DNA of 64,000 nucleotides from assembly GCF_001304615.2 (NCBI RefSeq), contig NZ_CP032683.1, positions 2,914,001-2,978,000 on the forward strand, in the 5' to 3' direction. The notes beneath the pieces are model-generated. The model was not told the origin of the DNA, did no database searches, and saw only the letters and a program-made list of their open reading frames with translations. Both the position numbers and the translations under genes were made by a program. This DNA comes from Methanosarcina flavescens. Lineage in GTDB: Archaea > Halobacteriota > Methanosarcinia > Methanosarcinales > Methanosarcinaceae. Shown here piece after piece: positions 44,612 to 61,730 of the stretch (the stretch's first letter is position 1; each line of letters opens with the position of its first letter).

Positions 44612-44625
44612 GATTAGTATTAATA
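44612..44625. repeat. casposon target-site duplication, left
   Basis: GATTAGTATTAATA, identical to 54846-54859. Confidence 0.9.
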
Positions 44626-44856
44626 GGGTATAGATACTCTTCGTTTTTGGGGGGTTTTATAAGATTCAATTGAATAAAAACATACTTTTCTTTTACTTCG
44701 TAATATTCTATCGTTTTTAACACAAATTTTCAAACGAGTAATACTAAAATAATGAAAACCACAATCTGGAAATAGGTAATCAAAAAGAGTTACATAAGTT
44801 TTTAAGGTAACTAGCTTTTTAATCAATCTAAATTCTACCTTTTTATTAGATTGTTT
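44626..44856. repeat. casposon left terminal inverted repeat (231 bp)
   Basis: Starts GGGTATAGATACTCTTC and aligns over its full length with the reverse complement of 54614-54845 with point changes and small indels. Shared blocks include TAACACAAATTTTCAA, GAAAACCACAATCT, ACTAGCTTTTTAATCAATCT and TTTTTATTAGATTGTTT. Confidence 0.92.
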
Positions 44857-45206
44857 GGTTGTTTGGTGATATTCAAATAAATATCTTTTTAATACTAGTA
44901 TCTTTTCTAAAATAGTTAGGCATTACCTAACTATTATAATTAATCCACTTTTTGTCAACTTGCGCTTAAATTATTTTCAAGTTAACAAATTTAAGTATGT
45001 AGGCATATGTAGTTTTCGCAAATTTTCTTAATAATTTATAATATATTCTCACATCAAAAAATCTGAATTTATATGAAATGTTTAAAATTTGCATTAATGA
45101 TTAGAAATCTAACTAATAATCGAATACTTTCACCCCGCTTCTAAGAGCTTTATATTCTCTGCGGGAATAGTAGGAGTAATGAAAGAAAGTATAGGAGATT
45201 GATAGA
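44857..45206. other. non-coding left interior of the casposon
   Basis: About 350 bp of AT-rich DNA inside the left repeat. It includes a perfect 10-bp palindrome at 44911-44935. AGGAGATTGATAGA ahead of 45207 is the ribosome binding site of the first gene. Confidence 0.55.
44911..44935. repeat. perfect palindrome inside the casposon left end
   Basis: AATAGTTAGG, loop CATTA, CCTAACTATT. A 10-bp stem could be an operator, a transcription stop or a replication signal. Confidence 0.7.
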
Positions 45207-45377
45207 ATGGTATTAAAAATATGTTTTACAGTGAAACCAAAAAGCTGTAAATTTTGTGGATCAAGCGATCTTGTGAAGAGAGGGTATGATATTACAATAC
45301 ATGGGAAGAAACAAAAGTTTGCATGTAAGGAATGTGGAAAAATTTTCTATGGTTTAAACCCTCAGGGAGTGGAATAA
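45207..45377 (+). CDS. 56-aa transposase-like zinc-ribbon protein of the casposon
   Basis: The small protein has two CxxC pairs (CKFCGSSD and CKECGKIFYG) separated by GYDITIHGKKQKFA, the pattern of small zinc ribbons found at the N-termini of transposases and in archaeal elements. Its ATG follows AGGAGATTGATAGA. It is the first gene of the casposon, overlapping or abutting the next mini-gene, and could bind DNA at the element ends. Confidence 0.75.
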   Translation: MVLKICFTVKPKSCKFCGSSDLVKRGYDITIHGKKQKFACKECGKIFYGLNPQGVE

Positions 45378-45378
45378 A

Positions 45379-45456
45379 ATGGATAAAGTTCTTATCAGAG
45401 TATTTGTAGCATGGATTCTTTTTGTTGTGTTATTTTTTGTGACAAATATAATTTGA
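45379..45456 (+). CDS. 25-aa single-pass membrane peptide of the casposon
   Basis: Starts one base after the stop of the zinc ribbon gene. The sequence has a short charged start (MDKVLIRV) and a hydrophobic core (FVAWILFVVLFFVTNII) and fits a membrane peptide. Expression is unproven. Confidence 0.45.
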   Translation: MDKVLIRVFVAWILFVVLFFVTNII

Positions 45457-45541
45457 AAAAAGTAGTCTGACTTAATTTTTCGTTGATTGAAAAATTGGCT
45501 AGCGGAAGCTTTGGTTAAATTTCAGAAAGGAGGAAAAGAAA

Positions 45542-45610
45542 ATGGAAGAAACAAAAGTTAAAATCAGATATTATAAACAAATATCCCCAGTTATCGGTAG
45601 GGGCTGTTAA
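45542..45610 (+). CDS. 22-aa mini-ORF upstream of the basic protein gene
   Basis: MEETKVKIRYYKQISPVIGR then GC and a stop, with a good Shine-Dalgarno (AAAGGAGGAAAAG) and only 2 nt before the ATG at 45613. Possibly a coupled leader for the next gene rather than a product in itself. Confidence 0.4.
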   Translation: MEETKVKIRYYKQISPVIGRGC

Positions 45611-45612
45611 TA

Positions 45613-46278
45613 ATGCCCAGACCAATTTTTTCAGCCCAATTTAGAACATATGGGGAATGGCTAAAAGCAGGCGATAGGACTTCAAAGTATGCTCAGGAAA
45701 TTATCAGAAAACACAAAGTTTTTCCAGATAGGAATTTAAAATTTTTAAATTCCTTAAAAATTTCTGATATTGATTTAAGTCTTAAACCAGTTTCAGCACT
45801 AACAGAAAAGGAATTTACAGAAAGAGGTGAAAGCCTTAAGGTGTTAAAAATAATGAGAAACGAGGGCTTAACCCTTTCAAAAAGTATTGAAAAGGCTAAA
45901 GAGTATGGCTATAACCCCTCGGAAAAGAGTGTAAGAAAAAGTTTAGGAAATGTTCTCTATAAAACCGGAAAAGGATGGAAAGCCAGAAAAACAGATCGAA
46001 TTGAGGTTAGAATGAACATTTATTCTAACGGTACAGAAGAAACAATAACATTAACAAACAGTAAAGATAGGACTTTAATTGGAAAATATTTTAATGACGT
46101 TAAGAAACTTTTGCATGGTCAACTAGACGAAAAAGCGTTTAAAAAACTCTATAGAAGGAAAGTAATCGTTGACGCAAAAGGAAATAAATGGAGTCTGGAA
46201 ACAAGTAGAAAAGACATAGAGATAATTGAAACAGCTAATCCAAACGATGTCTACAGGGTTATATATGGCACAAGATAA
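45613..46278 (+). CDS. 221-aa basic protein of the casposon, putative DNA-binding
   Basis: No recognised family. It is Lys/Arg-rich, with a possible helix-turn-helix region (LTLSKSIEKAKEYGYNPSEK, then SVRKSLGNVLYKTGKGWKAR) in the middle. The C-terminal half is beta-rich (EVRMNIYSNGTEETITLTNS). Its stop overlaps the start of the HNH gene by 14 nt. Candidate accessory replication or regulatory protein. Confidence 0.65.
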   Translation: MPRPIFSAQFRTYGEWLKAGDRTSKYAQEIIRKHKVFPDRNLKFLNSLKISDIDLSLKPVSALTEKEFTERGESLKVLKIMRNEGLTLSKSIEKAKEYGYNPSEKSVRKSLGNVLYKTGKGWKARKTDRIEVRMNIYSNGTEETITLTNSKDRTLIGKYFNDVKKLLHGQLDEKAFKKLYRRKVIVDAKGNKWSLETSRKDIEIIETANPNDVYRVIYGTR

Positions 46279-46915
46279 AAAATGTGAACTCTGCGGAGAA
46301 ACCGATAGCAGAATAATAGAATTGTATCGTATCTTTAGTAAAAACTCTCCACCTGCAATAAGGTTACTCTGCAAAAATTGTCTTTATATAACTAATCATG
46401 GACAGGACAACATTCCACGTAAAACAATAGTTGAAATCTCTGCCCCTAACAGCTTGGAAAAACTCATATTATTTATGATGGGTGGGTTTTCTCAGGTCAT
46501 TGGAGAAATTGCAGAGGCATTTGGTAACATATTGCTTGAAATGACTAAGCAACAGGAGCTAAACATAGTTCCCGAAGGGATAAACCTTGCTAAGGAACCT
46601 TATAATGTATCTCAATATACTGAAGAAGATAAAAAATGCGTCCTCTGCGGAGTAAATGACAATAGATTATTAGAAAAGCATCACACTGATGGTAAAAATT
46701 TTTCACCTAATACAGTATTACTTTGCAAAAACTGTCACTATAAAATTACTTATGAACAAAACAAAATTACACCTAAAAGAAGATCGAAAAATGCAACGAT
46801 TAACGATTTAGTAAATTTTATGTTAATAAGTGAAGGAGTTCTATTTAACGAGATGGGAAGAGTACTAAAGGATACTGGAGAAGAATTTAACAAAATTAGT
46901 AAACAAGGGGAATGA
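46265..46915 (+). CDS. double HNH-like zinc protein of the casposon
   Basis: About 216 aa with two similar CxxC...CxxC modules. The second (KCVLCGVNDN, LLEKHHTDGKNF, SPNTVLLCKNCHYKI) has the full HNH layout with His-His, Asn and His. The first (KCELCGETDS, LLCKNCLYI) keeps the zinc cysteines but lacks the His-His pair and final His, so it is probably structural. HNH proteins are common in casposons and may nick DNA. The ATG at 46265 is preferred over 46226, which overlaps the previous gene more. The polymerase gene starts 7 bp downstream. Confidence 0.82.
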   Translation: MAQDKKCELCGETDSRIIELYRIFSKNSPPAIRLLCKNCLYITNHGQDNIPRKTIVEISAPNSLEKLILFMMGGFSQVIGEIAEAFGNILLEMTKQQELNIVPEGINLAKEPYNVSQYTEEDKKCVLCGVNDNRLLEKHHTDGKNFSPNTVLLCKNCHYKITYEQNKITPKRRSKNATINDLVNFMLISEGVLFNEMGRVLKDTGEEFNKISKQGE

Positions 46916-46921
46916 TGAGGC

Positions 46922-49900
46922 ATGGAAGACAAAACAGCTTACTGTAGGGGATATATAGAAACTAAAAGAAAAAATGAGGGTAATAAAGGAAAACCATTTA
47001 TCCCAAATAAGAAAACTAAACCCCGTCATTCCAGAGTTTTAACTTTTGATACTGAAACAACTAGCGACACTTTCCAGAATTTAAAAGTAGGATATTTCGA
47101 AATTCACGAAAAAGGCATTTTGCAGGAAAGCGGATTCTTTTATAATCCTATGCCTGAGAACAATTTGGATGTAAATACCCGCTTTACCATTCCGCAAAAT
47201 ACCCTTTCACAAAATCCATTATCTTATGAAGAAGTTCAGATACTTAAAGAGTATGCAAAAAAGGAAAATATTCCCTTATACACCACAAAACAGTTTATAG
47301 AAAATATATTCTTTTATGAAGTATATGAAAAAGAAACCCTATGCAATGGGTTTAATCTTCCTTTTGACGTTTCCCGAATAGCCAGAAAAGCGGGAAATAC
47401 TGTAAAGGGAAACCCCACAAAAGGAGATATTTTATTATTATTCCCCCATATCCCAAACTCTCTAAATATAAAAATTGGTAGAATGGGTTTAGCGGAGACT
47501 ATTTCCTTTGTAAATCCTGAAACCGAAAAAGGAGAAGAAGCCCCTAGACTGAAAACTAAAGGTTACTTTTTAGACTCATCTCATTTATATAGCGTGCTCT
47601 TTGGGTCTGGCACTCAGCACTTTTCACTAAAGCAGGTATGTAAGAACCTAAAAACAGAACATCAAAAAGAAGAAGTCGAAGAACATGGAACGATAACTAA
47701 TGAATATCTCCATTATCTTCAGTGGGATGTAAAAGCAACATATGATGTTTATTGCATACTGGAAGAAACATTCAATAAATATGGTTTAACTAAAAAGGAA
47801 ATTACTAAAATTTATAGTGCAGCTTCAATAGGAAAAGCAGCTTTAAAACACTTAGGAATAAAGCCCTTTTTAGATTTAAATCCTGAATACCCTTCCATTA
47901 ACTTAGGTAGAATAATGGAAACTTATTTCGGTGGAAGGGTAGAATGTAAACTAAGGCATGAAATTAAACCAGTGGAAGTCTTAGATTTTACATCTATGTA
48001 TCCCTCTACTATCGTTTTACTTGGATTATGGGAATACATGATATCAGAAGGATATAAAGAAATAAAAGCAACAGAAGAAATTAAAAAATTTGTAGATTCA
48101 ATAACTTTAGAAGATATGGTTAATCCTGAGACATGGAAGCAATTAGTAGGTATTGTTAAGGTAAGACCAGATAAGGATATTTTACCCCTTAGAGCGGGTT
48201 ATAATGAAAATGGGGAAAAAACAGTAGGTCTTCAATACTTGACCTCAAACCATGAAATGTGGTTTGCATTGCCTGATATTGTTTCTAGTAAACTCCTTAC
48301 TGGCAAAACTCCCGAAATAATAGAGGCTTATAAATACGAAGCAGGAAGACCACAAAAAACCCTGAAATCTCAGAAAATTCTAGGGTATCAGATAAACCCG
48401 AAAAAAGATAACCTGATTAAATTCTTCGTTGAGGAAAGACAGAAAATTAAAAACGAAATGGAGAAGCTGGAAAACGAAGGAAAGCAGACTTCTCCAGAGT
48501 ATTCAGAAAAAGATGGTCTACAGTTAGCGTTAAAAATCTTATCTAATGCTCTCGGTTATGGAATATTCATAGAATTAATAACTCAAAAGACAGAAAAAAC
48601 TTTAGTAGTATGTAGGGGGGATAAAAAATTTTCTTCTATTGGCAGATCAGAGGAAGAAGGAGTATATTTTAACCCCCTGATAGGAAGCACAATAACAGCA
48701 GCTTCAAGACTTATGCTAGCAATAGCGGAGACCAAAGTGAAAGAATTGGGGAATTCTCACTATTACATGGATACGGATAGCATTTTTGTCCCGCCGGAAA
48801 TAGTGGAAGAGGTTTCAGATTTCTTTAATCCATTAAATCCTTATGAGAACGTTTCTCAACTTCTAAAAGTTGAGGATAAATTCAAAAGGGTAAAAGATGA
48901 AAAAACCGGAGAGAAAACACCTGTTCAGTATTTCTTTGGTATTTCATCTAAAAGGTATGTAGTGTTTGCACTTGATGAAAAAAACATCCCTGATATATCA
49001 AGAATGGAAGGGAAACTTCACGGAATGGGACATATAACAAACATATTCAAAGAAGAGATTACGGAAGAGGATAAGCATTGGCATCCCCTGTTATGGAAAG
49101 ATCTTATTCTTTATCATATGGGGAAACTTGACCATGAGGATATTGTCTTAAAATATGGTAACAAATTTGAAATTGCTAAAGTAGCCATCAGAACACCTAC
49201 TACACATAACAGATTTAAAACATTTAATGAAGGAAAAGAATGGGAAAAACAAATAAAGCCGTTTAATTTCTTCAATCAAGGAAACAGGAAGGATAAAGAT
49301 GTTTTTCCTATTGCACCAATGAGGAAAAACCCTCAAGAGATGGTAAAGTATCCGTTTATTGATTACATAAGCGGAGAAATAAAAGAAGGTAAAGAATACT
49401 TTAAACCAATGGATAAAACCTTCTTTGATTATTACAGGCACCCTGAAATAAAATTCGAAGGAAAAAGAGGGTTGCTTAAGCGTAGAGATATCTTTATAAC
49501 AGATATTAAAACGATAGGAAAAGAGATACCTTCAGTAGATGAGACAGGAATAGAAGCAGAGGAAGAAGAAGATATACAGGTATTTGAAGAGAAAGAGAAT
49601 CTGTTATATATTATAGAAAAAGAGTGCGAGAAAGCAGATAGAGAGGGAAAAACAAGAAAAGGGGATATTGCAAGGATTAAGAACCAAATAGAGATTTATA
49701 AAGAATATAATCCCAACGAGGAAGAATTGGCGGAATATACAGTAAGATGCTTAAGAACTTTGAAAAGGACAGGCAAAGACGTAAAAAGAAAACCTATCTT
49801 ACTAACTGACGAAAAGAGAGAAAAAGTATTGAATATGCCGGAAAAAGAGGGAAAAGAAAAAGGAATTCCTGAAAAAACTTTGCAGAAAATAAAAGCAAAA

Positions 49901-49996
49901 ATCAGAGAAGGAAAAGCCCTTAATGGTAATCTAGAAAGTACAAAGAAAATAATGGAATACATAGACAGCCAGAAAGGGGAGATAAAAATATGTTGA
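46922..49996 (+). CDS. family B DNA polymerase of the casposon
   Basis: The 1024-aa protein has the three 3'-5' exonuclease motifs (FDTETTS with D43 and E45; NGFNLPFD with D149; YLQWD with Y265 and D269). The polymerase motifs are also present: motif A VLDFTSMYPS with D355, motif B LALKILSNALGYG with K538 and Y546, and motif C YYMDTDS with D617 and D619. KRY at 677-679 is present. All catalytic residues look intact. Whether it is protein-primed cannot be told from the sequence. The C-terminal ~180 residues are Lys/Glu-rich. The 82-aa gene overlaps its end by 7 nt. It presumably copies the element. Confidence 0.93.
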   Translation: MEDKTAYCRGYIETKRKNEGNKGKPFIPNKKTKPRHSRVLTFDTETTSDTFQNLKVGYFEIHEKGILQESGFFYNPMPENNLDVNTRFTIPQNTLSQNPLSYEEVQILKEYAKKENIPLYTTKQFIENIFFYEVYEKETLCNGFNLPFDVSRIARKAGNTVKGNPTKGDILLLFPHIPNSLNIKIGRMGLAETISFVNPETEKGEEAPRLKTKGYFLDSSHLYSVLFGSGTQHFSLKQVCKNLKTEHQKEEVEEHGTITNEYLHYLQWDVKATYDVYCILEETFNKYGLTKKEITKIYSAASIGKAALKHLGIKPFLDLNPEYPSINLGRIMETYFGGRVECKLRHEIKPVEVLDFTSMYPSTIVLLGLWEYMISEGYKEIKATEEIKKFVDSITLEDMVNPETWKQLVGIVKVRPDKDILPLRAGYNENGEKTVGLQYLTSNHEMWFALPDIVSSKLLTGKTPEIIEAYKYEAGRPQKTLKSQKILGYQINPKKDNLIKFFVEERQKIKNEMEKLENEGKQTSPEYSEKDGLQLALKILSNALGYGIFIELITQKTEKTLVVCRGDKKFSSIGRSEEEGVYFNPLIGSTITAASRLMLAIAETKVKELGNSHYYMDTDSIFVPPEIVEEVSDFFNPLNPYENVSQLLKVEDKFKRVKDEKTGEKTPVQYFFGISSKRYVVFALDEKNIPDISRMEGKLHGMGHITNIFKEEITEEDKHWHPLLWKDLILYHMGKLDHEDIVLKYGNKFEIAKVAIRTPTTHNRFKTFNEGKEWEKQIKPFNFFNQGNRKDKDVFPIAPMRKNPQEMVKYPFIDYISGEIKEGKEYFKPMDKTFFDYYRHPEIKFEGKRGLLKRRDIFITDIKTIGKEIPSVDETGIEAEEEEDIQVFEEKENLLYIIEKECEKADREGKTRKGDIARIKNQIEIYKEYNPNEEELAEYTVRCLRTLKRTGKDVKRKPILLTDEKREKVLNMPEKEGKEKGIPEKTLQKIKAKIREGKALNGNLESTKKIMEYIDSQKGEIKIC

Positions 49997-50238
49997 ACAT
50001 GAATAAAAAGCCTGAACAGGAAGAAATAATCTTAATTCCCTTCTTTTTATTTCAAAGATGGTTTTATGAATTAACTTCTGAAGATTTAAAAAGATTTGAT
50101 GTTAGTTTAGTTGAATATTTAAAAGTAAGAAAACTAATTTCTACTGGGAGAATTACAAGAGTAAACGACAAAACAGTTTTCAAGTTTTTAAAAATATGTG
50201 AAAACGATCTTAAAGAAAGGGAAATTCTTAAAATATAA
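49990..50238 (+). CDS. 82-aa small protein between polymerase and Cas1
   Basis: A small protein with no recognised family (LIPFFLFQRWFYELTSEDLK, SLVEYLKVRKLISTGRITRV). It is mostly helical and has a basic middle. It overlaps the polymerase end by 7 nt behind GGGGAGATAAAAAT, so coupling is likely. Could be a polymerase or Cas1 partner; this is position-based only. Confidence 0.6.
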   Translation: MLNMNKKPEQEEIILIPFFLFQRWFYELTSEDLKRFDVSLVEYLKVRKLISTGRITRVNDKTVFKFLKICENDLKEREILKI

Positions 50239-50300
50239 ATCTCTGTTTCCTTTTATTTTTCCTGATACCTTTTTTATTTCTATACTTCCTTTTATTATGT

Positions 50301-51299
50301 ATGGGGAATCCGCTTATTTTGAATGGTTACGGCATTAAAATTACTGTTGATAATGGAAGACTTGTTATTAAAAATGGAAACAGAAGTTCAGAAGAGAAAC
50401 CAGAAAGTTATTATTTACAGCCCAATCAGAAGAAGATAACATCTATCTTAATTTATGGTCAAACTGGTTATATTTCCCTTGAAGCTTTTAAATGGATAAG
50501 TTTACAGAATATCCAGCTTAATATTTTTAATTGGGATGGAAGTTTATTATCTTCAGTCAATCAGGAAAAAGAGAATAATGGAAAAAGGAAAATTGCACAA
50601 TACGAAACCTATCTTGATGAAGATAAAAGATTAGGTATTGCAAAAAATTTGATTAAAGCAAAAATAACTAATTCTATTAAGATTTTAGATTCTTTACCGT
50701 TTCCAGTTATTGAAACTCATCTTATCGTTCCATATCTTAACGAAGTAGATAACGCAAAAGATATACCGGAATTGATGGGGTATGAAGCTACCGCCGCAAA
50801 AATCTATTGGAAGGAATTTATGAAAGCTATTCCTGAAAAATGGGGGTTTGTAGAAAGATCAGGAAGAGAATCTTCTGATTATACAAATACGATGTTAAAT
50901 TATGGGTATGCCTTACTGGAAGCTGAATGTTTAAGAATCATTAATACTGTAGGGCTTGATCCATGTATCGGCTTTTTGCATGAAATGAGAAACGAAAAGC
51001 GGAGCTTAGCATATGACCTACAGGAGATTTTTAGAGGAGAAATAGACGTAGTAGTCTATAAACTACTTTCGAAGGGCTATAGAGTTCCTAAAACAGACTT
51101 TTTGAGAATGAATAATTATTCCCTTAGATTAAGAGAGGGAGGGACAGATAAGCTAAGTAAGGCTTATGAAACCCGAATGAGTGAGAGAATAGAGTATGAA
51201 GGGAAACTCATTCCGAGAAGGAAAGTAATAGAAAGGAAAGGGTTTGAGTTAGCGGAATATGTAGAGGGAAGAAGAGAGAATATTAATTTTTTGTATTAA
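50301..51299 (+). CDS. cas1: Cas1 integrase (casposase)
   Basis: The 332-aa protein has the Cas1 fold order: an N-terminal beta domain (ILNGYGIKITVDNGRLVIKN, then ISLEAFKWISLQNIQLNIFN) and a C-terminal helical catalytic domain. Catalytic residues are E162 (MGYEATAAKIYW), H227 (GFLHEMRN) and D239/E242 (LAYDLQEIF), the Glu-His-Asp metal site of Cas1. A C-terminal tail (SERIEYEGKLIPRRKVIERK, then GFELAEY) is longer than in CRISPR Cas1 and may bind DNA. No Cas2 is present. The start at 50301 has no Shine-Dalgarno and may be read from a very short leader. Confidence 0.93.
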   Translation: MGNPLILNGYGIKITVDNGRLVIKNGNRSSEEKPESYYLQPNQKKITSILIYGQTGYISLEAFKWISLQNIQLNIFNWDGSLLSSVNQEKENNGKRKIAQYETYLDEDKRLGIAKNLIKAKITNSIKILDSLPFPVIETHLIVPYLNEVDNAKDIPELMGYEATAAKIYWKEFMKAIPEKWGFVERSGRESSDYTNTMLNYGYALLEAECLRIINTVGLDPCIGFLHEMRNEKRSLAYDLQEIFRGEIDVVVYKLLSKGYRVPKTDFLRMNNYSLRLREGGTDKLSKAYETRMSERIEYEGKLIPRRKVIERKGFELAEYVEGRRENINFLY

Positions 51300-51621
51300 A
51301 AAAGTGTAAAATATGTATGTTTTTACATTTAAATTGTAAATTTAGTAAATTTACAGTAAATTGTGTAAACCGTTATTGGACGAACGTGTAAATATTTACA
51401 ATAAAAAAGTAAAACAGTATCGGTTGAATTTTACAGGTAATGACACAAGGGAAAATGTAAAAAGTATTTAAGAATATTATTCCATGTTTTTATCTCTTTA
51501 TATGTCTGTATTTGAAGAGAGCTTAAGCTTAGGAAAAATTGGCTTTGAGAATTTAAGTTTACTAGGCATTTATTGATTCAATTAGAAATGAATTAATATT
51601 CCCTAGTGAATTACTATTTAA
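51300..51621. other. casposon spacer with clustered TGTAAA/TTTACA motifs
   Basis: About 320 bp with at least ten close copies, in both orientations, of TGTAAA or TTTACA between 51301 and 51480, including GTGTAAATATTTACA. They look like iterons or a dense regulator array. Otherwise AT-rich, with the promoter of the membrane protein gene at the right. Confidence 0.6.
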
Positions 51622-53385
51622 ATGAGTTCAAAGAGACACATTAGTAAGTTCTTAGAATTTAATAGGATATTTTTACCAAAAAATTACGAATCAATTACTA
51701 AGAACACACTTAATATACTATTATATATTTTTTTCATTATATGTTTTACGATTTTAGCTCAAATATATAAAATAGGACTTCTTATAAATGAAGAATTCTA
51801 TATTTTGTCCATTATAATAAAGATATCTGTTTATATATTTGAATTTATAATATTCATAAAAATTTTATCTTTAAGAACTAATTGGGATGCATATTTTTTA
51901 AAATGCTTACAGGTTTTATCTTGGAAACAAACGTTAGAACAACGCTGGTATTTTGCGATATCAGTCACTTATTATAGCATCTTCGGTGTAAATACAATAA
52001 TTTCTGATATTTTACAAATATTCAGTAGCCGCTATGATGTCCAGCTTTTGTTTACTCCTCAATATGGATACTTCATATCGGCTTATATAATGTTTATGCT
52101 TCTATTCTTTTTTGAAATGTTTTTTTTGTTTATAATTTTGTTTGAGGGAACTATTTCTTTATTATTTAAAAGAATAAAAAGAGCTAACAGTAGTCTTGAG
52201 AAATCAACGAAGAGTCAATTGAAATCTACAAATCTAATCTCATTTGATTACACAGATTCAAAATTATTCTTATTCGAATTTTTAATTATTTCTATTGTCT
52301 TTGCAATGATTGTGTCAGATCAAGTGAATTATTATTTTTTAGACCCATCTTTGTTTAACTATAAGCTTTTTTTAATAAGTTATTCGATTGTTTTACTCTT
52401 GTTTAGTTACATTACAATTTCTATAAACAAAATCGTATTTAATCGTTTGAATGTAAAATATTGCATGGATTTTAAAAACAATAAACAAGATATCCTTTGT
52501 TTATTTATTGGTAATTTTATTTTTGTTAATGCAATTTATTTTGCAAAGTATCTTAAAATAGCCTTAGTATATTATCCAATAGATACCAATAATTTCAATA
52601 TAATCAATATGATGTCGGAATTAATGATGCAAGCTGGAGGAATTCCATATCAAGATCCAATTAATTTGAAATTGTTAGCTCTTATAGATTATTTCATAAT
52701 TTCTATTATTTCTGCGATAGTATCATATCTTTTATATATATACCTAAATTCAACGCCCTGCTTTTTAGAACTTAAGCAAGCTGTACTAAACCGCTTTAAA
52801 AAAAGATATAGTTCTAAAGTTTCTGAAAACCCCCAATCGAAAATAATTAAAAAATCATTCTTAAAGCAGCTAAGACATCAGTTTAGAAATCCGAAAAAAG
52901 TAAAGAGCTTCAACTATTTCTTTTATATTTGTGCGTTTGGAGTTCCTTCTGTTGTCTCTGTGATCGATCTGTACTTATTAATAAATGACTCTACTTTTGG
53001 TACTAATTTTTATAGTGACCATGTGTTTAGATATCAATATGTCTTTGCTGCTTATACTGCTTTTGTCCTTTTCTTGGGTTATATTTTTACAGAAATTCGA
53101 AAAATATATAATAGTTCTTTAAGTTCTGCTTTAGACAAGAGCATGCTCAATGAATATCTAAAATTTTTTTCGATAACATTCTCTATAGCTATTTCATGTA
53201 GAATTACAATTTTTTTAAGTTGGGTTTACAGTTTATCTGAAAAATATGATGGCATTGTTGCCCCTGAAAAAATTCAAACATTTCAACTTCTTTTTTTATT
53301 TTTGGGAACAGAATATGTCTTATCAGATATATGGCCAAAGGTTGAAGATATGTTAAACAAAGTAATAGAACGAGAGAAAACATAA
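51622..53385 (+). CDS. 587-aa multi-pass membrane protein, probable casposon cargo
   Basis: No recognised family. About ten to twelve hydrophobic segments (for example ILLYIFFIICFTILAQIY, FLIISIVFAMIVSDQ, VSVIDLYLLINDS) with a charged loop region (KRIKRANSSLEKSTK) and Lys-rich cytoplasmic stretches. AT content is very high and codon use differs from the chromosomal genes. It has no casposon-core homologue known to me. It could be a transporter-like or defence-type membrane protein; not decided. Confidence 0.65.
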   Translation: MSSKRHISKFLEFNRIFLPKNYESITKNTLNILLYIFFIICFTILAQIYKIGLLINEEFYILSIIIKISVYIFEFIIFIKILSLRTNWDAYFLKCLQVLSWKQTLEQRWYFAISVTYYSIFGVNTIISDILQIFSSRYDVQLLFTPQYGYFISAYIMFMLLFFFEMFFLFIILFEGTISLLFKRIKRANSSLEKSTKSQLKSTNLISFDYTDSKLFLFEFLIISIVFAMIVSDQVNYYFLDPSLFNYKLFLISYSIVLLLFSYITISINKIVFNRLNVKYCMDFKNNKQDILCLFIGNFIFVNAIYFAKYLKIALVYYPIDTNNFNIINMMSELMMQAGGIPYQDPINLKLLALIDYFIISIISAIVSYLLYIYLNSTPCFLELKQAVLNRFKKRYSSKVSENPQSKIIKKSFLKQLRHQFRNPKKVKSFNYFFYICAFGVPSVVSVIDLYLLINDSTFGTNFYSDHVFRYQYVFAAYTAFVLFLGYIFTEIRKIYNSSLSSALDKSMLNEYLKFFSITFSIAISCRITIFLSWVYSLSEKYDGIVAPEKIQTFQLLFLFLGTEYVLSDIWPKVEDMLNKVIEREKT

Positions 53386-53517
53386 TATTCCAGCTGTGTG
53401 AGGAATCATTCTCTATAAAGTTAACGAAAGTTATTATAAATTTCTGAGATGAGTAATAACGCAACAAAATCAAAAAGAATATTTACATTATTTTCTTAAT
53501 TAACCGCGTGAGAAAAA

Positions 53518-54513
53518 TTGGAAATTGTCACTAAAGAACCATTACAGATTCTATCGCAGCTTTTGATTCCTATTATTGTTGTTATTGTAACAGGTTTTAT
53601 ACAAGTAATTTTCAAAACTTATTTAAGTCTACGTGAAAAAAACAAGTACATCAAATTATTGAAAGTTAATTTTCCTTCTGTAGAAAAATATCTAGACACA
53701 GTAAAAATTTACAAAATTATTACTGTATATTGCTCATCATACGTGTACTTTATTGTTGGCATTTTAGCAGGCTTTTTGATTGAGCTAATTTTAGTACAAG
53801 TAATTGCAAAAATATTTGACTATATTCTTGATATAAACTATATTGGAAATTTGTTAGATTTAAGTTCAGACGTGGTCATATTAAATGTTGTTGCGTTTTT
53901 TCACTCATGTTCTAACATGGGAATACTTATCGTTTTATTAATTTTTATTTCGTGGTGTAGATATCTTGGATCAAAGAAACTTTTTATTCCTAAAATTGGT
54001 GAAGATGGCGAAGTAAAATCGTCTTTTGTATATGTATCGTTTTGGGTCTTTATTGGTGTTGTTCTTGGATTGTATATAGCTATGTTTCTTTATTTTACCG
54101 CGACTCTCTATAATCTCTCAATAATTGACAATAATCTTTCATTTAATAGAGAACGATTTGATCTTGTATATAAGCATTTAATGTATTTAGGAGTTCACGT
54201 AATTGCATATATAATGGGGTTTTCTATAAGCCTTGCTTTAATAGTCGTATCATATTTTTTTGCTAAATGGTTTAATGAGAGCGTCATTAGGTCAATAACA
54301 AATTTTTATAAGCATGACCTCCCTTATGTTAAAATAAAAACCGAAACTGGAGAAATTAAAGGTCAATTTAGAGGCATTTTAGATAAATATTTAGTCACTT
54401 TAAGTGAAAATAATATATTAAAAATAGTACAATGGGATAAAATAGAAACGATGGAAATCAGCCCTAAAAATAAAAAAGAAAATTATATTTTTAATGAGGG
54501 TTTTAAAAAATAA
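53518..54513 (+). CDS. 331-aa membrane protein with C-terminal soluble domain, probable casposon cargo
   Basis: About five membrane helices (residues about 10-30, 73-100, 120-145, 175-205, 230-260) and a C-terminal beta-rich domain of about 50 residues (VKIKTETGEIKGQF, ILDKYLVTLSENNILKIVQW, DKIETMEI) that looks like a small SH3/Sm-type barrel. No recognised family. It is 132 bp downstream of the 587-aa protein, on the same strand, and may be its partner. The start is TTG behind GTGAG. Confidence 0.6.
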   Translation: MEIVTKEPLQILSQLLIPIIVVIVTGFIQVIFKTYLSLREKNKYIKLLKVNFPSVEKYLDTVKIYKIITVYCSSYVYFIVGILAGFLIELILVQVIAKIFDYILDINYIGNLLDLSSDVVILNVVAFFHSCSNMGILIVLLIFISWCRYLGSKKLFIPKIGEDGEVKSSFVYVSFWVFIGVVLGLYIAMFLYFTATLYNLSIIDNNLSFNRERFDLVYKHLMYLGVHVIAYIMGFSISLALIVVSYFFAKWFNESVIRSITNFYKHDLPYVKIKTETGEIKGQFRGILDKYLVTLSENNILKIVQWDKIETMEISPKNKKENYIFNEGFKK

Positions 54514-54613
54514 TAGATTTTATTTATTATTTTTAAGAAAGCATTATAATTGTATAAATCTAAATTAAGAAATATAAAAGTATTGAAGATATTGCTCGAG
54601 AATATCTTCATCG

Positions 54614-54845
54614 AAACAATCTAATAAAAAGACAGGATTTAGATTGATTAAAAAGCTAGTTACTTTAAAAAACTTATGTAACTCTTTTTGATTACATAGC
54701 TCTAGATTGTGGTTTTCGCTATTTTGGTGTTATCCACTTGAAAATTTGTGTTAGGGCAGGTAAAGTGTTACTAATAAAATAAAAAGTATGTTTTTATTTA
54801 TTTTAATCTTATATTACCCCTCAAAAATGAAGAGTATCTATACCC
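54614..54845. repeat. casposon right terminal inverted repeat (232 bp)
   Basis: Reverse complement of the left repeat (44626-44856) with about one-fifth of positions changed by eye; outer end ACTCTTCATTTTTGAGGGG on the other strand. Confidence 0.92.
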
Positions 54846-54859
54846 GATTAGTATTAATA
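54846..54859. repeat. casposon target-site duplication, right
   Basis: GATTAGTATTAATA, identical to 44612-44625. Confidence 0.9.
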
Positions 54860-54955: not shown

Positions 54956-55420
54956 ATGGAGTACAGCTATGACCTTACAGGAAACTATCTATGCATTGGA
55001 GAAAACCGAATACCTGCTTACAGCCTGGAAGAAAATGAGATCGGTAATTGCACCAGTTGCGATTCCATACTTATGAGCCTCAGCTACCACGCAGCAGGTG
55101 AAAAAACCGTAATTGTAACAAAATGCACTTCTTGTGGGACTTTTTATGCAAATGTCTATGATTCCGCATGGAACTGGATAGATGAGGTGCAAGTATCCCT
55201 GCTTCCAATCCCTATTCCTATAAGTAACCAGATCGTTGACGACTGGGAAGGGCTTGAGGCAATTTCTATGAAAAAGCTTGAAGCCGTCTTTTCCAGAGGA
55301 GAAATCGAAGCCCTTTTTGCCAGGGCAAATGAAGAAACCCCTGTCCGTCAATACCTGTACAGAGCCCGCAAAAAATATAAACTTTTCGAAGAAATCTTTG
55401 ATATTGAACTCGCATTTTAA
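54956..55420 (+). CDS. 154-aa zinc-ribbon hypothetical
   Basis: The protein has two CxxC pairs (IGNCTSCDSI and VTKCTSCGTF) about 30 residues apart, forming a zinc ribbon. A helical C-terminal half follows, ending in RQYLYRARKKYKLFEEIFDI. No family recognised. It starts 97 bp beyond the casposon's right target duplication. Function unknown. Confidence 0.65.
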   Translation: MEYSYDLTGNYLCIGENRIPAYSLEENEIGNCTSCDSILMSLSYHAAGEKTVIVTKCTSCGTFYANVYDSAWNWIDEVQVSLLPIPIPISNQIVDDWEGLEAISMKKLEAVFSRGEIEALFARANEETPVRQYLYRARKKYKLFEEIFDIELAF

Positions 55421-60196: not shown

Positions 60197-60210
60197 GATT
60201 AAATCAATAG

Positions 60211-60440
60211 TTATGAGTGCTCTTCATTTTTGAGGGGTTTTCTACAGTTATAAGAATAAAATATACTTTCTTTATGACTCATGCTACCTAGTTGATTTTA
60301 ATATAAATATCTAAACGGTAACGTAGAAGATAGGAAATCACAATCAGATAGATGTAATAAAAATATATTATAACTTTTCAGTGTAATCGGCTTTTTAATC
60401 CGTCTAAAATCTTTTCATTAATGTTTAACGAAGATATTCA
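60211..60440 (+). repeat. solo, diverged casposon-type terminal repeat
   Basis: The sequence from about 60211 contains TCTTCATTTTTGAGGGG, TAAAATATACTTTCTT, GAAATCACAATCAG, GGCTTTTTAATCCGTCTAAA and ACGAAGATATTC in the order and spacing of the casposon right repeat read inward. It is preceded by GATTAAATCAATAG (60197-60210), one deletion and a few changes away from the casposon target. No second end or casposon gene was found up to 64 kb. Confidence 0.7.
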
Positions 60441-60642
60441 GACCAACACTTTTGATATGGCATTTTTAGCATTAAGCATACTTCTTTTACAATTTGAAAT
60501 ACTATTTATGAATATATAATATTATTTAACTATATAAGTTTCGGAATAATAAATATTTTTTAACAAAAAGATTATCTTATTCTGAGATGTATTTAGATTA
60601 ATTTGAGAAAAAGAGTTAATAATTGGGAACTGGCATGATACT

Positions 60643-61368
60643 TTGGAAAAAGATTTCACATATATAAAATTTCCAGAAGGCACAAACAAAGTATATCTTG
60701 ATGATTTTTGTTATGAACTGGATAGAAATACTGATAGTTTGACAATAAGTTTTGAAGGTTATTTTTCCAGCTTTCCTGAAAGACTAGCTCCTTGTACGAT
60801 CTACATATTTGGCTTAGGAGGGGTTAGCATTTTAAAAATGGTAGCAATGCTTAAATCCATTTTACTGCTCTTCCTATTAATTTTAGAAATTATATTAGGA
60901 AGAAATAGCTCGCTTTCGTCAACCCTACTATTCTTTATGAGCTTGGCATTCGGTATCATCTCTTCATACATCTCTGAAATCAAGAATTACTACAACATTT
61001 CAAAGTGTGATAAGTGTGGCAGAGATTTTGCTTTCAAAGAAATTAAAGAGCCTCTTATCAAAATGGTAAGTACTTATGATAAATTCGAAAAAACAATAAC
61101 AAGATACATGAAGTGTATATATTGCAATAATGAAGAAATCAAGACAGAAATCGAATACGAGCTTTCCAAATCCAAATCAAAAAAGATTAGCAAAAATAGA
61201 AGAAATTGTAAAGAATGTGGAAAAAAGCTTGCTTTAGCAGAATACAGGCACCCTGATGTGAATATGGAATATAGGACTGTTAGAACTATCAAACACTATA
61301 AATGTATAAGTTGTGGATACATGGAAATTAGCATAAAGTACAATTACATCCCTAATTCAGCTGATTAA
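60643..61368 (+). CDS. membrane-anchored double zinc-ribbon protein
   Basis: The 241-aa protein has an N-terminal region (about 1-58), two hydrophobic segments (about 67-110), then two zinc ribbons. The first is CDKCGRDFAFKE paired with MKCIYCNNEE, the second CKECGKKLALAE paired with YKCISCGYMEI. The two ribbons look like a duplication. No family recognised. It starts at TTG with a weak Shine-Dalgarno. It lies just inside the solo casposon end and could be a relic of that element or an ordinary host gene. Confidence 0.65.
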   Translation: MEKDFTYIKFPEGTNKVYLDDFCYELDRNTDSLTISFEGYFSSFPERLAPCTIYIFGLGGVSILKMVAMLKSILLLFLLILEIILGRNSSLSSTLLFFMSLAFGIISSYISEIKNYYNISKCDKCGRDFAFKEIKEPLIKMVSTYDKFEKTITRYMKCIYCNNEEIKTEIEYELSKSKSKKISKNRRNCKECGKKLALAEYRHPDVNMEYRTVRTIKHYKCISCGYMEISIKYNYIPNSAD

Positions 61369-61730
61369 AAATCAGTGCATAAATTATTTAGTACGCATAC
61401 TAGAATAATATTCCTCGATTTTCATTTCTTTCTCACACAAAGAAGCCCCTAAACGAAGTCTGAAAAAAGATCAAAAGAGAAATTTATAAAAAGGCACAGG
61501 AATAAAAGGCGCCGGAATAACAGAAAAAGTTCCCGCGCCTCTAAAGAAGAAGTAGACCTGGCTACGGAGAATATCAGGATTTCTTAAAAATCTCACAGGA
61601 ATAAATATTCTATCGAATCTCTCCCTGGATTATTCTATTTTTCCTCCTGCTTAGATATTCCAAGCTTTCTTCTTGCTGGTTTATTCTGATTTTCTTTTTA
61701 TCTGAATTGTTCGGGTTATTTTTCCCTGAT
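61369..61730. other. spacer, no gene seen
   Basis: About 360 bp AT/purine-rich sequence between the zinc-ribbon gene and the response regulator. No coding sequence supported. Confidence 0.45.

Follow-up and report, generated by a model that had tools for sequence, protein, structure and literature searches.

Casposons are transposons that insert by means of the CRISPR Cas1 enzyme. They are discussed as the source of CRISPR adaptation, and casposon ends without a partner have been interpreted as insertions that may be spacer-like. The window analyzed here (the whole 64,000-nucleotide stretch of Methanosarcina flavescens DNA) contains an intact casposon and, elsewhere, one further casposon-type end, hereafter S, that stands without a partner. 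How did this end come to be alone: was it inserted as a short piece, was it copied from the casposon nearby, or is it what is left of a larger element?

The intact casposon and its target site

The following features define the intact element (44612–54859).

44612–44625, forward strand: left target-site duplication GATTAGTATTAATA (present once at the G029 empty site)
44626–44870, forward strand: left terminal inverted repeat (alignment to the right repeat)
46922–49996, forward strand: family B DNA polymerase (Pfam DNA_pol_B, E = 4.6e-6, above the cut-off)
50301–51299, forward strand: cas1, predicted casposase (Pfam Cas_Cas1, E = 7e-62)
54600–54845, reverse strand: right terminal inverted repeat (alignment to the left repeat)
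54846–54859, forward strand: right target-site duplication GATTAGTATTAATA (sequence; empty site in G029)

The element is 10.2 kb long and was classed as a casposon on its Cas1, its family B polymerase (PolB), its inverted repeats, its 14-bp duplication and the presence of an empty site in a relative. The repeats are ~245 bp each and differ from one another at about one-sixth of the positions (206 identities, 37 mismatches and 3 gaps in an alignment that included the target). In G029, the closest relative, GATTAGTATTAATA occurred once and the flanks were joined as ...CTATAAAAAGGG GATTAGTATTAATA GGTTTATAACC... at G029:C1 ~596069, and this stretch reads as a clean, precise empty site of the intact casposon. 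The 14-bp target is nearly palindromic and takes the form GATTAATATTAATA in most relatives. A genome-wide search for cas1 gave one match at threshold, inside this casposon, and the encoded Cas1 is 42–44% identical to its relatives in four other genomes. No relatives were found among plasmids in a search for near matches with the whole element as query, nor among viral contigs with cas1 as query. Three more genes lie near the ends of the element: one for a 56-aa zinc-ribbon protein (45207–45377), and two longer ORFs, of 587 aa (51622–53385) and 331 aa (53518–54513), neither with a Pfam match.

With MetMaz-C1, of the Family 2 casposons of Methanosarcina, the intact element has in common Cas1, PolB, inverted repeats and a target duplication of 14 bp. 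MetMaz-C1 itself, an element of ~10 kb that moves in vivo, carries a 31-bp repeat and a 14-bp duplication (PMC10359463). The two differ in the length of the repeat (~245 bp as against 31 bp) and in the target, which is GATTAGTATTAATA upstream of a protein gene here and of the CGCA-led tRNA-Leu type in MetMaz-C1.

The motif GATTAATATTAATAGG[T/G]TTATAACCTT was found upstream of the same gene (54956–55420 in the window) in many Methanosarcina genomes. A right casposon-type end lay beside the motif in G002, G004, G006, G008, G016, G020, G026 and G028, and none lay beside it in G029, G018, G003, G005, G011, G012 or G013. The site of the intact casposon is, by these comparisons, a casposon hotspot conserved in Methanosarcina and adjoining a protein gene, not a tRNA gene. 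The elements in the eight other genomes are at stages from 7.8 kb down to a single end. The largest, in G020 (Methanosarcina sp. DH2; L090, 596–8408), is a decayed 7.8-kb casposon with unrelated genes inside and a cas1 fragment 88% identical to the cas1 of the window. The relic in G026 (Methanosarcina sp. UBA11020) measures 0.88 kb, with both repeats and both target copies, and that in G004 is a right half only. A ~160-bp piece that separates the left and right parts of the G026 relic and is bounded by TAACTAT copies (L009, ~1270–1440) recurs partly in G004 and is absent from S; it may be an insertion in the relic or a deletion in S. In G028 (M. spelaei), an apparent IS66-like insertion breaks the relic, and ATAATTTG may be its 8-bp duplication.

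A third casposon-type end in the genome

The S locus is laid out as follows.

60197–60210, forward strand: candidate target GATTAAATCAATAG of S (single copy found)
60211–60450, forward strand: S, a casposon-type left terminal repeat with degraded outermost bases (alignments, profiles, tree)
60451–60533, forward strand: spacer of the left interior, which merges into sequence upstream of the putative cargo gene (80% identity to the interior of the G026 relic)
60524–60680, forward strand: upstream region and 5' part of p241, with frame breaks before 60643 (matches to the G026 relic and to G010)
60643–61368, forward strand: p241, an ORF of 241 aa that starts at TTG; putative cargo gene, its product predicted to be a membrane protein with CxxC zinc-ribbon motifs
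61369–61480, no strand: expected place of a right terminal repeat, none found

An earlier, sequence-only reading had likened 60211–60440 to the terminal repeats of the casposon, and the likeness was confirmed. The local alignment of S with the left repeat scored 97 (1000 dinucleotide shuffles: mean 22, maximum 37) and that with the right repeat 75 (1000 dinucleotide shuffles: maximum 38). The refuting outcome that it had named, a score no better than that of shuffled AT-rich sequence, did not occur; S lies far above the shuffles. A profile made from the two intact casposon repeats alone recovered S at E = 1.5e-14, and a profile of 11 repeat ends, built without S, matched 60218–60444 at E = 4e-23; the top match among 20 shuffled windows had E = 0.11. 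The genome search for further copies that had been suggested was run with a sequence-only covariance model from 12 ends, S left out. Across the 3.28-Mb genome it returned exactly three places, both ends of the intact casposon and S (1.1e-9). The AT-richness of the region and the frequency of the target motif, which by itself is common at three edits, might suggest a chance resemblance, but the shuffle and genome-wide controls refute it and leave it a negligible probability.

The coordinates first proposed for S were correct to within a few bases, and its homology with related elements runs beyond 60440, to ~60670. The outermost GGGTATAG of the repeat has become TTATGAG in S. Matches to the repeat were present in 11 of 112 genomes of the family, all 11 of them Methanosarcina. 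Matches in G002, G026:C125 and G007 were weak (E from 1e-3 to 7e-3), looked chance-like when read and were set aside. An Rfam search of the window returned two tRNAs and no other non-coding RNA.

In a maximum-likelihood tree of 16 ends (~240 AT-rich columns), S and its G029 ortholog clustered with the G026 and G028 left ends at 97% support, and the two ends of the intact casposon fell apart from them. S is therefore unlikely to be a copy of the neighboring casposon.

The 14-mer in front of S, GATTAAATCAATAG, lies exactly at the edge of the repeat, a notable position that hints at a target of S. Without gaps, 6 of its 14 positions agree with GATTAGTATTAATA, the target of the intact casposon (a count made directly on the sequence); when gaps are allowed, it is at most three edits from the 15-mer of the intact element. 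Besides the two true copies, 14 more places in the 64 kb are equally within three edits, and for this reason the description of the S target as near-identical was too strong. The corresponding sequence is kept as GGATTAAATCAAT in G029 and as CTGATTAAATTAA in G018; in G013, a genome without the insert, the intergenic stretch contains CTGATTAAAATCAAGTAG. A second copy with fewer than three mismatches was not found in a search up to 62000. Repeated use of one target within 6 kb had been offered as another explanation of the locus. It finds no support: the two targets are only loosely alike, the tree puts S on another branch of terminal repeats than the intact casposon, and within the genus the site seen in repeated use is that of the intact casposon rather than that of S.

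Age of the insertion

S lies in the intergenic stretch between two response-regulator genes. Its ortholog in G029 occupies the same locus, between the same two genes; there, a 37-bp deletion between two GTTAT copies removed the outermost part of the repeat, and a deletion of ~790 bp runs through p241, of which the last codons remain. The S locus of G018 has a shorter, more degraded left end (9.4e-7, the only repeat match in that genome), followed by a gene other than p241. In the outgroups G005, G012, G013, G015 and G030, the upstream region of RR157 joins sequence homologous to ~61440–61490 onward, and the insert is absent. Because the orthologous end is present in G029 and G018 and absent from the outgroups, the insertion, as judged by this comparison, predates the split of G000, G029 and G018, with a gain of ~1.2–1.3 kb at the S locus. 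The sequence-only reading had spoken of an older insertion that lost its interior. The age is borne out; the loss needs correction, as the left interior is still there along with a probable cargo gene, and the clear loss is that of the right end.

The interior and the putative cargo gene

Behind S, ~60452–60533 aligns at 80% identity with the interior of the G026 relic (E = 3e-12), and 60507–60560 matches the upstream region of a p241 homolog in G012. The next segment, ~60530–60680, matched the right halves of the G026 (E = 1e-19), G004 and G028 relics, and the upstream and 5' part of two genes of the p241 family in G010 (E = 1e-19). The fragment in the G026 relic, when translated, resembles the start of a p241-family gene with broken frames (VNDWKLINDILSK, compared with LDNWKLVTDILSI in the G010 gene). 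Residues 6–239 of p241 are 71% identical to G010:C7, its C-terminus coincides with the end of its homologs, and its Pfam match to DZR (double zinc ribbon) is weak, below the curated cut-off. The frames upstream of the TTG at 60643 are broken, and therefore the product, if any, would be shortened at its start.

The hotspot relics resemble S in having the left repeat (G026 and G028), the spacer and the 5' part of p241 in this order; they differ from S in that they lie at another locus, keep the right repeat and have lost most of p241. As the left repeat, spacer and 5' part share their order at two unrelated loci, p241 is probably the cargo gene of the S element. The p241 family is present in 26 of the 31 Methanosarcina genomes, and its members are widespread without a repeat nearby, so a rearrangement may have brought p241 and the repeat together at S. 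A rival account would make p241 an old neighbor, leave the repeat alone as element-derived and require that the G026 relic captured its p241 fragment independently. It draws on the fact that p241-family genes are common chromosomal genes, some of them in tandem. We consider it unlikely, given the same order and spacing at the two unrelated loci, the agreement of the S and G026 fragments at 103 of 114 aligned, ungapped base pairs, and the lack of p241 at the S locus of the outgroups.

What S lacks

A profile search 3' of S gave no match to a right repeat. The best single match, at 61403–61431, was tried as a candidate: it matched the inner right repeat of G026 with p = 0.002 in 1 of 12 tests, was not seen in G029, and was rejected. 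Across 60197–61480, the left end of the expected inverted repeats is present and the right was not found, and the target of 14–15 bp exists in one copy. No ORF for a Cas1 integrase occurs at 60211–61480 and none for a family B DNA polymerase, p241 being the sole ORF of relevant size. S thus has the repeat of the intact element, but not the cas1 and polymerase of the Family 2 casposons. With an end homologous to a casposon repeat, at a locus that is empty in the outgroups, S qualifies as a casposon-derived relic; the remnant should be immobile.

The absence of these genes raises the question of whether they were ever there. S and the G026, G028 and G004 relics may descend from a cas1-free derivative that carried p241 and was moved in trans, a special case of the remnant reading. 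Both loci keep the repeat, the spacer and the 5' part of p241, with no trace of cas1 or polymerase. The same absence could equally result from independent deletions of a full casposon, and the 31 genomes yielded no intact short element that has both ends as well as a complete p241. This descent is doubtful, if conceivable.

Solo ends are already known from M. mazei. As far as PMC6977970 describes them, these are solo-TIRs, 19 or 31 bp in length (credited there to Krupovic et al. 2016), and they are proposed to be possible spacer-like insertions. By analogy, Cas1 could have inserted a short casposon end alone at the S locus, in the manner of a CRISPR spacer; the M. mazei precedent favors this, as does the uninterrupted casposase gene of the intact element nearby. 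Like the M. mazei solo-TIRs as described in that source, S is one casposon end whose partner is absent. It differs from them in its length (~240 bp versus 19 or 31 bp), in the interior and gene behind it, and in its inheritance across species. The homology of S continues into an interior and cargo common to a two-ended relic, that of G026, so that S is not an isolated end; a second target copy does not flank it, and its lineage is other than that of the resident casposon. An insertion of the end alone is, on these grounds, very unlikely, and S, set beside the solo-TIRs of that account, is a longer and older relic. At G030:C2:1505318–1505368, ~50 bp match only the outer repeat (E = 7e-5) and may belong with the short solo ends described in M. 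mazei.

A probable one-ended remnant

We conclude, with a probability of roughly 0.78, that the segment from 60197 to ~61480 is an old, immobile, one-ended remnant of a casposon-type element. The observations under this reading are the repeat, its orthologs, its absence from the outgroups and an interior common to a second locus. A casposon-type element, composed of the left repeat, a short spacer, the p241 cargo and a right repeat, and perhaps of further genes, would have entered between the two response-regulator genes before G000, G029 and G018 split, presumably by the action of a Cas1 casposase. A later deletion would have taken away the right end together with one of the target copies. 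Since then the repeat has drifted, with damage to its outermost bases, and frame breaks have arisen in the 5' part of p241. Against this reading stand the lack of a right repeat, second target, cas1 or polymerase at the locus, and the arrangement in G018, where a truncated repeat is followed by a gene that is not p241.

If the cas1-free descent were true, S and its relatives would represent a non-autonomous class of casposons, in which casposon ends enclose a single membrane/zinc-ribbon cargo gene and resident casposases act in trans. As it stands, S is an orphan end that can be followed across species and looks like the ordinary decay of a larger element, which calls for caution when other solo casposon ends are interpreted. 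The occupied, half-decayed and empty sites also place casposon insertions within one genus on a relative time scale, and S matters mainly as a datable fossil of the decay of a casposon-type element.
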